From the NCBI GenBank assembly GCA_030432565.1, contig JAUIGV010000004.1:186001-250000 (forward strand): DNA of 64,000 nt. Direction: 5' to 3'. Of this stretch, positions 6,402 to 22,588 are shown piece after piece. The DNA is from Verrucomicrobiia bacterium. GTDB taxonomy: Bacteria; Verrucomicrobiota; Verrucomicrobiia; Verrucomicrobiales; Akkermansiaceae. Positions within the stretch are counted from its first letter, which is position 1, and each line of letters starts with the position of its first letter. The notes beneath the pieces are model-generated. The model was not told the DNA's origin. It did not search any database and worked only from the letters and a program-made list of their open reading frames with translations. Position numbers and translations under genes: made by a program.

Positions 6402-7634
6402 ATGAATCCCATTACTGTCAGCAGCCGACCTCTCGTCGCAAAAACATCCATTCCAAGCTACCGTCAGGGAGCGACTCCCATTCCTCAAATCGCCAGCGCC
6501 TTTCTTGAAAGCGGGCTCGAAACCCCCTCCTACGTCCTCGATCAACGAGCCTTCCACCACAACGGAAGCATCCTCAAGCACGTTCAGGACGAAACCGGGG
6601 CCAAGATTCTCCTCGCCCAGAAGGCTTTCTCCTGCCCGGCAATCTATCCCATTCTCCGCAACTATCTTGCAGGGACCACCGCCAGTGGACTCTACGAAGC
6701 CCGCCTTGCTGCCGAGGAGTTCGGAGGCGACGTTCATGTCTTTTCCCCCGCTTACAAACCGTCGGAAATGAACGATCTCGTGAAAATCGCCGATCACATC
6801 GTCTTCAATTCGGTGGCCCAGTGGTACCGCTATCGCGAGCAGATCCTCTGTTCTGACCGCCCGATCTCCGCCGGACTTCGCATTAACCCCGAATACGCCG
6901 AAGCCTGTGCCGAAATCTACAACCCCTGCGCTCCCGGCTCCCGCTTTGGCGTCCTCGCCGAACACCTCACCGCCGATGATCTCGAGGGCATCGAGGGGCT
7001 TCATTTCCACACGCTCTGCGAACAGGGCTCGGACGCCCTTGAGCGCACGCTTGAGCACGTCGTTACCAAGTTTGACAAATACCTCAAACAAATGAAATGG
7101 CTCAATATGGGCGGCGGCCACCTCATCACCTCGGACCACTACGATGTCCCGCGCCTCATCCGGATCATTCGTGAAATCCAGGCCCGCTACCCTCAACTCG
7201 AAATCTTTCTCGAGCCCGGGGAAGCGATTTCCTCCGGCGGTGGCGTCCTCATCGGCAGCGTCATTGATATCGTAAAAAACGGAATCGAAGTCGCCGTCCT
7301 TGATGTTTCCGCCACCACCCACATGCCCGACGTCCTCGAAATGCCTTACCGCCCAGATGTCGAGGGATCCGGCCAGCCGGGCGAGAAAAAATACACCTAT
7401 CGCTTCGGCGGACCGACCTGCCTGAGCGGAGACGTCATTGGTGACTATTCCTTCGACGAGCCCCTCAAAATCGGAGATCAACTCGTCTTCCACGACATGG
7501 CTCACTACACCATGGTCAAAAACACTACTTTCAACGGAGTGCCTCTTCCCTCGATCGCCATTATGCGCGACGGCGGTCCGGTCGAACTTGTTGCCGAGTT
7601 TGGATACGACAACTTCAGATCCCGTCTCGGATAA
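6402..7634 (+). CDS. nspC: Carboxynorspermidine decarboxylase (PLP, alanine racemase-fold family)
   Basis: ETPSYVLDQRAFHHNG, LLAQKAFSCPAIYPIL, GLHFHTLCEQG, LNMGGGHLIT, FGGPTCLSGDVIGDYSF; start set to internal ATG 6402. Confidence 0.9.
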   Translation: MNPITVSSRPLVAKTSIPSYRQGATPIPQIASAFLESGLETPSYVLDQRAFHHNGSILKHVQDETGAKILLAQKAFSCPAIYPILRNYLAGTTASGLYEARLAAEEFGGDVHVFSPAYKPSEMNDLVKIADHIVFNSVAQWYRYREQILCSDRPISAGLRINPEYAEACAEIYNPCAPGSRFGVLAEHLTADDLEGIEGLHFHTLCEQGSDALERTLEHVVTKFDKYLKQMKWLNMGGGHLITSDHYDVPRLIRIIREIQARYPQLEIFLEPGEAISSGGGVLIGSVIDIVKNGIEVAVLDVSATTHMPDVLEMPYRPDVEGSGQPGEKKYTYRFGGPTCLSGDVIGDYSFDEPLKIGDQLVFHDMAHYTMVKNTTFNGVPLPSIAIMRDGGPVELVAEFGYDNFRSRLG

Positions 7635-10534: not shown

Positions 10535-10874
10535 GAAGGGTTCAGTCTTCCAAAAGCACCAAAAGAAATCAAGGCGCAATCGTTTTGATGATTCACCTCA
10601 ATGCGCCCCATTGATAAAACAGGGCCTATTTCCGCTTATCCTTTTAAGTCCTCGCATCCACGATCTGCCGTGGGGAAAGCCATCACCTCCGAAACCACCC
10701 TGGACGCTCCGAATAATCCCACCTTCCCCAAGCAAAACAACTCACTCACCAACGGCAGGATTCCAATTCCACCCCCTTTCTCCTTCCGTTCATCCGTAAA
10801 TTTGATAAGCATATCTGCAAATGGCTTTAGGAAATCCTTCCCCGGCCCCAGACCTCCTTTCCCGACTCTTTCAT

Positions 10875-12062
10875 ATGCGGAGACTGCTGAAGGGATCGTT
10901 CCTTTTTCTTTCCTTCGCCCTCCTCTCCCCCACCCTGGCCCAGGCATCCCGCACCAACCCCGGCCTCGCGGCCCGGCCCATCTCTCCATTCGCGGAAACA
11001 GCCAAACCTACCTTCAATCATCCCGGCGCCTATGCCTACCACTTCAAAATTCCTCCCGTCGCTCAGCCGGACACCCAGGCAAAAATCCACACCTACAACA
11101 TAACCCACGCGACTCCCCCTTCGTCACCCTCAGTCCCACGCCCTTCCTTGATTCCAGCCCTGCTCCCCCTGCTCCCCCTGCTCCCCTGCCGCCACCCGCG
11201 TCGCCGGAACCGCCATAATACCAATACGATAACGCCCCCAAACCCACCTGACAGAAAGGACAATTATCCTTATGATCACTCCACCGGGGCCACCCACCAG
11301 ATACACTACTACGGCTATCGTTACTACGATCCGGTGACGGGGAGGTGGCCAAGCAGGGATCCGATTGGAGAGAATGGGGGTGTCAATCTTTACGGGGTGG
11401 TTGGGAATGATTGTGTAAACGGATACGATTTTTTGGGGATGTTAGAATTACAAGACATAGGAAAGCCCGCTTTGCAGAAACATGTGGATGAAATAAATCA
11501 GCGCATCATGGACGCTGATTTAGAAAGTTCTGCTGCAAGAATACATGAAATGTATAATTGGTTAGTGGAAGGAGGAAAGCTAATGGACCTTGATTTCTCC
11601 TCAAAAATGATGGAAAGATGGTTAAGTGGAACTGGTGAAAGATATCTAATGAAGGAGTCCGAGGTGTTGAAATATGTAAAAGACGATGAAGTTGTTAAAC
11701 AATTTTTCGAGGACATCAAAAACTTTTATCCTTATACGAAAAATCCGAACGATAATTTTCTAAAGGAAGAGGAGTTCATAGTTGCTCCTAAAGTTAATAC
11801 GGATATGTTTTATGGTATGGGTCGTGCTTATCTCTACTTTACTGGCTGTGTCTTTTGGGATGGAAATGAGCCTCAAAAATCCTCAGGTTACTTTGTGTTA
11901 AAGGATCGATATGATTGGCACAAGGGTTTAAGTGTCAAGGTTTTTGGAATCGTTATCCCAGATGCTTGGGCTTTGATGGTGGAGGAATTCCATGGCGCGA
12001 AACCCTTCGATATAGTGGGAGCTACACAAAAAATTACATTGGAGAGACCTGATCAAAATTGA
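10875..12062 (+). CDS. Truncated Rhs-repeat core protein with variable C-terminal (putative toxin) domain
   Basis: Signal-peptide-like N-terminus; Rhs core [46 protein letters not shown] followed by a ~210-aa AT-rich unique tail. Confidence 0.75.
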
Positions 12063-19744: not shown

Positions 19745-20287
19745 CTATTTTTGATTCTCCCAGTCGGGCCGCGTGATGGCTCGCACCACGCTATCACTGG
19801 GCACGCCAAAACGAATGGCCTCACATCTCAGTAATCCTTCCTTCTTAAGGCCTGCCTTCTCCTGAACGCGCCCCGAGGCCAGGTTCTGCGGAAGGTGCTT
19901 GGCCGCGATGCGAACCAGGCCGAGATCTTCAAAACCATAGTTGATCACCGCTTTGAGAGCCTCGGTGCAATAACCCTTACCCCAGAATGGCGGTCCAACC
20001 CAGTAGCCAACCTCCGCCCTGAGTTCGTCATCGTCGATCGAAAGCTCGATCACTCCGACAAGCTCCTCTTCCTCACGCAGGATGATGGCAAATGGACCAC
20101 CCGGTAATCGGGAGGTCAGACACCCTTCAATCCAATTGATTGCCGCATTTTCAGGATAGGGATGTGGAATCAACAGAGTCATCTCTGCAACCCGAAGGTC
20201 TCCAGCGTATTTCTGAATTGGGGGAGCGTCTTTACGCTCCAAGGGACGCAGTCGCAGGCGCCCGGTTTCAAGGATCTTTGCTTTCAT
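19745..20287 (-). CDS. GNAT N-acetyltransferase, RimJ/RimL-like
   Basis: ILETGRLRLRPLERKDAP...GYWVGPPFWGKGYCTEALKAVINYGFEDLGLVRIAA. Confidence 0.87.
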   Translation of the reverse strand: MKAKILETGRLRLRPLERKDAPPIQKYAGDLRVAEMTLLIPHPYPENAAINWIEGCLTSRLPGGPFAIILREEEELVGVIELSIDDDELRAEVGYWVGPPFWGKGYCTEALKAVINYGFEDLGLVRIAAKHLPQNLASGRVQEKAGLKKEGLLRCEAIRFGVPSDSVVRAITRPDWENQK

Positions 20288-20466
20288 AATTTTGATTGAA
20301 ATGTGGTGCCCGGGGAGAGAACGCTCCAGCTTTTCTAAGAGCTTCCTCATTTACCGATTTCCGAAGGAGCAAACAGGGCACCTCTTGGCGTGAGCGGAAC
20401 GACGGCGTCCGAACTCACACTGAACCAGGTCGAAGAAAACGTCTGCCATTGGGTTACCCGGGCATT

Positions 20467-20542
20467 TGGGGGAACCAATGGTATTTGCAACCACACTGCG
20501 ACCTTCACAGAGTCGAATACGATCTCATACACCAAGACTCCC
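20467..20542 (-). tRNA. tRNA-His(GTG)-like, atypical D- and T-loops
   Basis: Manual cloverleaf: acceptor GGAGTCT/TGGTTCC (6/7 incl. GU), G-1:C73, encoded CCA, anticodon stem CGACT/GGTCG with loop CTGTGAA, T-arm GTGGT-TGCAAAT-ACCAT. Confidence 0.55.
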
Positions 20543-20552
20543 GTCTCAAAAA

Positions 20553-20627
20553 TGGTCGCGCGTCAGCGGTTCGGACCCTGTTCGCCTTGTTGGAAGCCAA
20601 TTCCATCGCTTGCAATGCGAACCCGCG
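20553..20627 (-). tRNA. tRNA-Gly(TCC)-like, degenerate
   Basis: Manual cloverleaf: acceptor CGCGGGT/ACGCGCG (6/7), A73, encoded CCA, loop CTTCCAA, T-arm CAGGG-TCCGAAC-CGCTG (4/5); anticodon stem poorly paired. Confidence 0.4.
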
Positions 20628-20782
20628 AAAAGTTCTTGGCGGAAAACAGCCCCCCTGGCACCCAATACCCACCCTGGTGTTCAAGACCAGTTGCCGGCCA
20701 TTTACGAAACCTTCCCTGGAAATGATTGCGGAGCTGTAAAGACTTGCATGCGAATCCACTTGTCTGGCCAGCTTTTCCAAAC

Positions 20783-20869
20783 TGGTGGGTGTGGCAGGAT
20801 TTGCACCTGCTCAGCCCGAAGGCTTCGGTTTTACAAACCGACCCGACTCTCTCGCTTCGGCGCACACCC
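20783..20869 (-). tRNA. tRNA-Tyr(GTA)-like with long variable arm
   Basis: Acceptor GGGTGTG/CACACCC 7/7, A73 + CCA, D-stem CCGA/TCGG, anticodon stem TCGGT/ACCGA loop TTGTAAA, variable arm AGCCTTCGGGCT, T-arm GCAGG-TGCAAAT-CCTGC. Confidence 0.75.
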
Positions 20870-20875
20870 GGAAAT

Positions 20876-20950
20876 TGGTAGCGGGAGCGGGAATTGAACC
20901 CGCGAGGAATGGCTTATGAGGCCACTCTGAGAACCAACACTCTTCCCGGC
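20876..20950 (-). tRNA. tRNA-Met(CAT)-like
   Basis: Anticodon stem GTGGC/GCCAT loop CTCATAA; T-arm GCGGG-TTCAATT-CCCGC; D-loop with GG; acceptor GCCGGGA/TCCCGCT (one mismatch); encoded CCA. Confidence 0.65.
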
Positions 20951-21813
20951 ATAAAATGGAAAAGGGCTGAGAAGGACACCCTTATTCGTCTGAGCATGCT
21001 CCGGATTATCGCGGGTTTGCACACCCACCTTCCCGGATCTTCCACGACACAGGACACACGGGGTCCACACGTCGTTCTCCGACATGACTGCCTTTTTTTG
21101 GAAGTGGCGATTCTTCCATCCGGTCAGATCACTCAATGTTCCGCCTACCGTCGACCCTCACGGGCCGCAAAGAGGGGCTACCTCACCGTGCGACTTTCCA
21201 TCAACCTTTTGAAGACCTTGCGAGCCTCCGCAGGCCCCGATTTCCGCCAGAGCGGATCAGGGATTAAGCCATTTTCATCTGACCGTGGACGCGTCTTTGC
21301 GATTTCTATTAGCGTGGAAGGCTAAGGCATTTCCTCTCGTACTTTGCTGATTCCCCTGATTCAGGACGTGCGCGTCCGGTGGGTTCATCATCTTTTGAAT
21401 GACAAAATGCCACACACCCTATGTCCCATCTGCGGCTGGCAGATTGAACGGTCTTCGCGAAGCAGGCCGGGGACCAGGGAGCCACCGGCCGTTTCCACTG
21501 GACTACCCGGAAGCACTTGGCCGCAAAGCCTCACACCTCCGGACTCCCCTTCGCTCTCAACTGTCGATGTTTGCATAGGGACTCTGCGGACTGCTAATCC
21601 CGCCTTTCATTTGAGCATTTGCCATCCACGAAAGAAGCGTCCCCCACCTTCCAGCATCGCTCCATCAGACTGTCGATCCGATGAAGCCATTGGAGCCGGG
21701 ATTGCCTGGGTATTCTCCAGCTCGGATTGAGCCGAAGCGGACAGACAGGGTGCTGTCCCTTTACGTGCCTTTCGACACGCCCATCTTACGACGCCAGGCC
21801 GCCGTTGGATTTT

Positions 21814-21891
21814 CCTCCAAACAGGAAGGCGCATTTAGAGAATAGGCGCCCTCTTGTTTGGAGGGGAACCTGCATCAAAACACAGGTCCCC
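21814..21891. repeat. Two consecutive large hairpins
   Basis: cctccaaacaggaaggcgc / gcgccctcttgtttggagg, then ggggaacctg / caggtcccc. Confidence 0.6.
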
Positions 21892-22275
21892 TTCCGTTAA
21901 CCAATTTTTAGGAACGGGCACCGTTATCGCTTTCGTGTGAAAGCCATAGCCGCGGGATTTCTCGACGGACGTTTCGATGTTTCGGGCACATCTCTTGGGG
22001 GAAGCCACTTGGGACACCTGATACAGCGGGAGCTGAATAGATATCATTTTACATCCAGACAAAACTCCACCTTGACCAAAAGAGATGAACTATTATTATT
22101 CGCATTACGTTACGGGCGAATGCCAGTCATTCAATTGCTCGTGCTTCGGAATCGTCGTCAGTGGCTGCTGACGGCGATTCTTCGTTCAGGCTATGTTAAA
22201 AAATTCTCTTACTTGGATTCAGTTGTATTGGGTTTGGTTGGTTTGAATTGAAAATTATTTTCGAGAAATATCGGA

Positions 22276-22312
22276 TCACAAAAAAGCCCTGCTCCATTTC
22301 TGGCAGCAGGGC
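22276..22312 (-). terminator. Rho-independent terminator for a minus-strand transcript
   Basis: Stem gccctgct...agcagggc with aaaaaa on the plus strand 5' side (U-tract on minus strand). Confidence 0.65.
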
Positions 22313-22339
22313 GTAAATTCCTGAAATCCTTTGATTCCT

Positions 22340-22588
22340 TTAGAATAAGTCCCTGCTGGACGGTTGATAATTCGGAGACGGCTGGAGGTCTTCGACCCGC
22401 ATCATCTTTTCCTCGATGACGGAAAAACAACCGTCTTCGATATAGCCAAGCGCGTCGCTCCCCGATGTGGGCGGCATCCCTCCGGACCACAAAGTGGCTC
22501 GGAGTGATTGGCGATTTGGACTGATTGAAAACATGGAAGTGATTGGTTGCTGGGGCGGGAAGCTAGAGATCGGCCGCGACAAGGTCAA
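22340..22588 (-). CDS. Hypothetical short protein, possibly a remnant
   Basis: 82-aa ORF followed on its strand by the 22276-22312 terminator. Confidence 0.35.
   Translation of the reverse strand: MTLSRPISSFPPQQPITSMFSISPNRQSLRATLWSGGMPPTSGSDALGYIEDGCFSVIEEKMMRVEDLQPSPNYQPSSRDLF

Follow-up and report, generated by a model that had tools for sequence, protein, structure and literature searches.

A stretch of 64,000 nucleotides from an Akkermansiaceae genome (hereafter the window) carries on its minus strand a GOLLD RNA directly followed by a tRNA array, and we think it probable that this array is the relic of a reserve tRNA set built on a compensated elbow that would not depend on pseudouridine 55 (Ψ55). 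In many array tRNAs of related genomes, the ordinary G18-U55 pair of the tRNA elbow is replaced, as a pair, by A18-G55.

GOLLD RNA and tRNA array in the window

The features of the island and its surroundings are listed in Table 1. A relaxed Rfam search of 3.3 kb identified, directly upstream of the array, a covariance-model match to the 3' conserved domain of GOLLD (139.6 bits, E = 3.5e-38), which an earlier reading made from the sequence only had overlooked. The match is about 10 bits below the 150-bit gathering score (Rfam at the curated cut-off gave no match in the whole window), and close homologues in the same order, alignable throughout, exceed the cut-off with up to 165 bits. The presumed 5' variable domain and leader lie between a terminator-like hairpin (approximately 22275-22352, downstream of a sulfatase gene) and the GOLLD match; GOLLD 5' domains are described as poorly conserved (PMC12286853). 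A strong hairpin is found at 21810-21868, inside the presumed 5' domain, together with a spurious mir-2355 match; this and the other weak Rfam matches (PyrG leader, Tymo tRNA-like, M23 and others) were judged to be chance or a plain terminator hairpin.

Table 1. Features of the GOLLD-tRNA island in the window (window coordinates)
Feature	Position	Strand	Remarks
GNAT acetyltransferase	19745..20350	-	downstream of array; Pfam PF13302, 3.9e-34; island membership putative
tRNA-Leu(TAG) 5' fragment, relic	20442..20463	-	86.4% over 22 nt to L009 tRNA-Leu(TAG)
tRNA-His(GTG)	20467..20541	-	G-1/C73, A18-G55 elbow; acceptor stem weak
tRNA-Gly(TCC)-derived pseudogene	20553..20627	-	fold z -0.04; undetected by Rfam
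tRNA-Ser(GCT) 3' part, relic fragment	20728..20762	-	BLAST; ends CAA, not CCA
tRNA-Tyr(GTA)	20783..20869	-	A18-G55 elbow, long variable arm; the least decayed gene of the array
tRNA-Met(CAT)	20876..20950	-	G18-U55 elbow type; acceptor stem partly decayed (G1-U72, C2xC71); ARAGORN
GOLLD RNA (RF02032), 3' conserved domain	20964..21422	-	full-length match, model positions 1-416
GOLLD 5' variable domain and leader, presumed	21423..22270	-	ORF-poor; extent inferred from position

The Met gene begins 14 nt past the GOLLD match on the same strand and is followed by Tyr, Gly and His. The sequence-only reading had described these as four CCA-encoding cloverleafs in an ORF-poor stretch, and the stretch indeed has no long credible ORF. 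Using a cloverleaf finder written for this analysis (which ignores nucleotides 18, 19, 54 and 55 and accepts only genes that encode CCA), we recovered Met, Tyr (score 41.0), His and a poor Gly; the Gly copy is degenerate and folds no better than shuffled sequence (its z-score relative to shuffled versions is -0.04, as compared to -2.5 for Met, -3.0 for Tyr and -3.2 for His). Against the Rfam tRNA model, Tyr scores 41.7 bits (above the 29-bit cut-off) and Met 27.8 bits (just under it); His and Gly went undetected even at E<=10 in the 3.3-kb relaxed search. ARAGORN made a single call on the minus strand, tRNA-Met.

The T-loops are as previously read for Tyr and His (TGCAAAT) and Gly (TCCGAAC); that of Met is TTCAATT, and Met keeps the ordinary elbow, as had also been claimed. 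The claim that G18G19 is absent does not hold for Tyr and His, whose D-loops (AGCGAGAGAG and ATGAGATC) contain A18-G19: G18 alone is changed to A, and both G19 and C56 are retained. The window Tyr gene is 89.7% identical to the array tRNA-Tyr of a congeneric species (L178), and the His gene shares 76.5% identity over 68 nt with the array tRNA-His of Roseibacillus persicicus (L009), each having the same elbow as its counterpart. The gap between Tyr and Gly, taken to be empty, holds the tRNA-Ser fragment (82.8% over 29 nt to the tRNA-Ser of L178, with matches also to the Ser genes of L172, L008 and L170), and a BLAST search with the array tRNAs of relatives showed that the piece after His is the first 22 nt of a tRNA-Leu. 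With these fragments beside recognisable Met, Tyr and His genes and a poor Gly, the array was therefore once longer and is now decaying.

The window flanks contain chromosomal genes (sulfatases, PSCyt proteins, a PQQ-repeat protein and the GNAT gene), with no phage genes among those tested. No HNH nuclease gene is present in the window, and all of the repair genes described below are missing from its island. GNAT genes are found with a tRNA array in the Anabaena TrcR regulon (PMC10272220), although the family of the window GNAT is generic. Elsewhere in the window, a plus-strand ORF (10821-12062) has an RHS-type repeat core and a divergent C-terminus; judged by eye, it may encode a polymorphic protein of the RHS family.

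Decay of the window copy

The same locus is found in a sister genome (G003) with 96% identity over more than 5 kb, including the GNAT gene beside the array. Divergence between the two is 3.5% for GOLLD, 3.9-4.3% for the spacers, 1.2-5.3% for the tRNAs (the highest value being that of the Gly copy) and 2.5% for GNAT, which has 10 nonsynonymous and 5 synonymous codon changes. In the sister genome, C56 of tRNA-Met is mutated (T-loop TTTAATT) and its discriminator also differs. Since GOLLD, tRNAs and spacers diverge alike, albeit in small numbers, the window copy looks unconstrained. Its tRNAs do not have the marks of functional genes: Tyr alone passes the Rfam score, divergence equals that of spacers, and Gly is unfolded. 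The copy is a decaying relic of a GOLLD-tRNA island, in agreement with the earlier suggestion of a decaying mobile tRNA array.

Canonical copies of the isoacceptors, which the earlier reading proposed to look for, are present elsewhere in the host genome: it has a complete ordinary tRNA set, including Tyr-GTA, His-GTG, Gly-TCC, Gly-GCC and several Met-CAT, and all host tRNAs outside the array have G18G19 and TTC. The alternative that the array holds the sole copies of essential isoacceptors is therefore excluded.

Covariation of positions 18 and 55

With the same cloverleaf finder, blind to the elbow nucleotides, we collected 165 array tRNAs from GOLLD loci and same-genus array contigs, leaving out the window copy. 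Position 55 is G in 118 and U in 47 of these, never A or C, and positions 18 and 55 are tightly coupled: 108 tRNAs are A18/G55, 41 are G18/U55, and none is off-diagonal (12 were ambiguous and 4 were of other types). G19 and C56 are retained. Positions 18 and 55 thus change together with G19-C56 kept, which makes this a pair substitution (G18-U55 to A18-G55) and not a loss of the elbow; the earlier reading was right about covariation and wrong in calling it joint loss.

Two further sets show the same compensated elbow. The IMG/VR set, independent of the array set, was gathered with a T-arm pattern that specifies G55, along with unselected neighbour tRNAs, and contains 85 G18/U55, 40 A18/G55, 3 A18/U55 and no G18/G55 tRNAs. 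The class-level set, nine further regions found by the same G55 pattern in genomes across the phylum, contains 96 A18/G55, 3 G18/U55 and 1 A18/U55. Because the pattern selects G55 and not nucleotide 18, the coupling is unselected and the G55 frequency is selected. Almost no cloverleaves were found on the reverse strands, so false positives should be few. Limits on these counts are the use of MAG assemblies and of related sequences, the chosen finder thresholds and a rule-based reading of nucleotide 18, and they are no unbiased estimate of how frequent the swap is. Covariation is also seen between positions 54 and 58 (T-A 248, A-T 26, G-G 25, others 9), with C-A and C-C commoner in the class-level arrays; A54-T58 with U55 is also present in ordinary phages.

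About 13 isoacceptors are found in both elbow states, each consistently. On a stems-only tree, nucleotide 18 requires 57 changes and nucleotide 55 requires 69, as compared to about 102 for shuffled states; the tree is poorly resolved, and concordance within isoacceptors argues more strongly that the two positions changed jointly and repeatedly. These data bear on the idea that an unused mobile array drifted neutrally and that the covariation reflects shared ancestry of a few tRNAs. Drift fits the window copy, but for the arrays of relatives it is extremely improbable: both states occur in many isoacceptors without off-diagonal intermediates, dozens of changes are needed even on the poorly resolved tree, and identity elements persist. 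Many islands mix both elbow types, and the swap is therefore unnecessary for island membership.

GOLLD-tRNA islands in related genomes

GOLLD was found in 19 of 387 genomes of the order Verrucomicrobiales (seven above the curated cut-off) and in 2 of 388 genomes spread over the phylum. The verrucomicrobial GOLLDs align well with one another, and tRNA arrays follow most of them. Intact islands, in Verrucomicrobiales and in class-level relatives without GOLLD, contain 10-36 extra tRNA genes. Proteins encoded next to GOLLD include HNH (12 loci), TROVE/Ro60 (7), slipin (6), RtcB (5) and RNA ligase (4, each just upstream of GOLLD). The islands are not obviously prophages, the sampled surrounding genes being chromosomal or RNA-repair genes. 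The island of Roseibacillus persicicus KCTC 12988, for example, contains GOLLD, tRNAs, HNH, slipin and RtcB, with the swapped elbow in its His gene only.

In one genus, a compact island of RNA ligase, GOLLD, tRNAs, TROVE, RtcB and HNH was observed (L165:32-8988, L169, L164 and L168; gene content varies by locus), which looks like an RNA repair cassette. Two conserved proteins without a Pfam match were also seen: one of about 289 aa, encoded between the TROVE and HNH genes (L171:9167-10036; also L173, L169 and L178), and one of about 253 aa by HNH/RtcB/slipin genes (L009:6282-7040; also L347, L172, L179 and L386).

Ro60/TROVE and RtcB are encoded with tRNA-like RNAs in the rsr-yrlA-rtcBA RNA repair operon, which, unlike the verrucomicrobial islands, is not known to contain a tRNA array; this operon is the topic of PMC7790460. 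GOLLD beside tRNA islands, including pseudo-tRNAs and HNH genes, is already known: in phages, Lactobacillales and mycobacteria (RF02032), GOLLD adjoins a tRNA cluster, tRNAs sometimes lie inside GOLLD, the cluster may contain an HNH endonuclease, and there are signs of horizontal transfer (PMC6582537, PMC9569102 and PMC12286853). The verrucomicrobial islands differ in being chromosomal and in having also Ro60, RtcB, slipin and RNA ligase, and the window copy in being decayed; A18-G55 elbows, as found in Verrucomicrobia, go unmentioned in the consulted passages of these three sources.

A second set of tRNAs

An array spanning the full amino-acid repertoire was found in a genome assembled in one contig (G154; 100% complete). 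The 36 tRNAs of this array cover all 20 amino acids and read 52 sense codons by simple wobble, none of them has U55, and the array adjoins HNH, RtcB and slipin homologues. The other tRNAs of this genome are scattered round the chromosome and have higher canonical scores than those of the array. The array of G379 resembles it. Rfam did not find GOLLD in the regions of G154, G236, G320 or G052.

The array tRNAs retain features used for aminoacylation. All array tRNA-Ala with a sound anticodon arm have G3-U70 and A73; the discriminators are U73 in 8/8 Cys, G73 in 8/8 Asp and G73 in 11/11 Asn tRNAs; and Ser and Tyr tRNAs retain long variable arms. Array tRNA-His have either G-1 with C73 (four: L007, L008, L009 and L392) or A73 without G-1 (five: L170, L173, L386, L387 and L388), so that G-1/C73 forms a second covariation. 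Since identity elements persist, the array tRNAs look chargeable, and their use in translation is favoured; His genes without G-1/C73, at four loci, count against the reserve-set reading. Among the array tRNA-Leu, 16 of 27 have a short class I variable arm (approximately 5 nt) in place of a long one (L167-L176, L008 and others); the Leu tRNAs of Acinetobacter phage Herod likewise have a short variable arm.

The closest functional precedent for such a set is the trn operon of Anabaena PCC 7120, an array of 26 tRNAs that is repressed by TrcR, normally silent and induced by translational stress, in a regulon to which RtcB, slipin, HNH and GNAT genes also belong (PMC10272220). The intact verrucomicrobial islands similarly have a large extra array beside scattered housekeeping tRNAs, and share the RtcB, slipin and HNH genes; an extra set beside a housekeeping set is seen both in the window genome and in G154. 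GOLLD, however, is not reported for the Anabaena operon.

The sequence-only reading had also raised a non-proteinogenic or otherwise specialised role. With such a role, the elbow would be tuned for poor use of EF-Tu or the ribosome. The model for this, the staphylococcal peptidoglycan tRNA-Gly, has altered elbow residues in its D- and T-loops, and the T-loop change to UGC is like that in the array tRNAs. The 18-55 pair is also important when tRNAs translocate on the ribosome (Pan et al. 2006, as cited by PMC4810234), which would be in line with such tuning. However, the staphylococcal case concerns a single isoacceptor with a cell-wall use, whereas the verrucomicrobial swap is a consistent pair substitution in almost every isoacceptor (Met, Trp, His and Ile among them) of arrays that reach all the amino acids. 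The elbow is compensated rather than lost, identity elements are kept, and no recurrent peptidoglycan or other aminoacyl-transfer enzyme was found among the neighbours sampled; a specialised role thus seems very unlikely.

GOLLD and A18-G55 tRNAs in viruses

A search of phages with the Rfam GOLLD consensus gave matches in Acinetobacter, Streptococcus, Mycobacterium and uncultured phages, where the nearby tRNAs have ordinary elbows; the GOLLD-bearing Acinetobacter phage Herod has ordinary elbows only. The window GOLLD itself had no blastn match in phages. A first scan of viral contigs with a GOLLD 3'-end pattern gave 120 matches, all of which were chance according to nhmmer, and a stricter pattern gave nothing viral and, in genome contigs, about four verrucomicrobial contigs among chance matches. 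Huge-phage regions with TROVE or HNH homologues contain no A18-G55 tRNAs, and a Deinococcus plasmid with a similar RtcB has no tRNA array.

Two phage loci were observed in passing. A 635-kb uncultured phage (LR745206.1; L218, L367) has a GOLLD-like stretch and a TROVE gene about 180 kb apart, the latter 51% identical to the verrucomicrobial protein, with no A18-G55 tRNA near either. Phage DSS3_MAL1 (MN602268.1; L222) has a 33-nt GOLLD-like match (7001-7033) before or at the start of an annotated tmRNA (7117-7525) within a tRNA cluster, and the tmRNA annotation may deserve a check.

A18-G55 tRNAs are also found in viral contigs without GOLLD or repair genes. As GOLLD, repair genes and the elbow swap combine variously, they are separable, and none is the sole reason for another. 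This bears on the possibility that the array tRNAs are cargo of a GOLLD shell and that the swap serves packing. A 14-mer cage was shown for the env-38 GOLLD, and a tRNA cargo was suggested by the cryo-EM authors (both in PMC12286853); in the islands, GOLLD is directly upstream of the array, and at L002, L163 and L172 tRNAs are located inside it. Yet either elbow is possible in tRNAs inside GOLLD, some arrays with the swapped elbow have no detectable GOLLD, and in Acinetobacter phages the tRNAs arrayed with GOLLD show the ordinary elbow, which leaves very little probability for the packing explanation.

A conflict with phages, toxins or defence systems is another candidate reason for the swap: the altered elbow would hide the array tRNAs from nucleases that detect the canonical elbow or its modifications, and the linked repair enzymes would mend cut ordinary tRNAs. 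The near-complete extra sets, the RtcB, RNA ligase and Ro60 genes beside arrays, and the same elbow in viral arrays would fit. But known tRNA nucleases mostly cut the anticodon loop or the acceptor, the islands yielded no nuclease that reads the elbow, and mixed arrays would be protected only in part, so we regard nuclease escape as an unlikely main reason.

Discussion

In ordinary tRNAs, nucleotide 18 is intercalated between 57 and 58 and forms a single H-bond pair with Ψ55 (PMC4810234); U55 is the target of TruB, G18 of TrmH and U54 of the m5U54 enzymes (PMC7912444). As A18-G55 tRNAs have neither U55 nor G18, no Ψ55 or Gm18 is possible in them. Under the reading that we prefer, a reserve tRNA set, the A18-G55 pair plausibly takes the place of the ordinary 18-55 pair, and the swapped elbow would fold without Ψ55, without Gm18 and, where U54 is replaced, without m5U54 (U54-A58 is often replaced by A-U, G-G or C-A in array tRNAs). 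The array would be expressed under translational or RNA-damage stress, and its tRNAs would work independently of the elbow modifications of the host; they may also evade nucleases or other factors by which the ordinary elbow is recognised. A modification-free elbow would suit tRNAs made fast under stress or in hosts with an unreliable modification state.

More generally, we suggest, with slightly more doubt than belief, that some bacteria keep an additional, nearly complete set of tRNAs within a single island, with a shared A18-G55 elbow and often without U54, as a kit independent of Ψ55, Gm18 and m5U54 and partly orthogonal to elbow-reading factors; the island lies beside RNA repair genes and sometimes GOLLD, and some viral tRNAs have the same elbow. 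A literature search that covered subscription journals thinly, and is thus a weak negative, returned no earlier description of an A18-G55 elbow or of tRNA sets that use it.

Few features of tRNA are as highly conserved as position 55 (Ψ55) and G18. If the proposal is true, the elbow is swappable as a unit, and these arrays would offer a natural test of the roles of Ψ55 and the 18-55 pair; it would also account for standard gene finders missing or under-scoring many array tRNAs. GOLLD, a giant RNA of unknown function, would then be tied to RNA repair islands.
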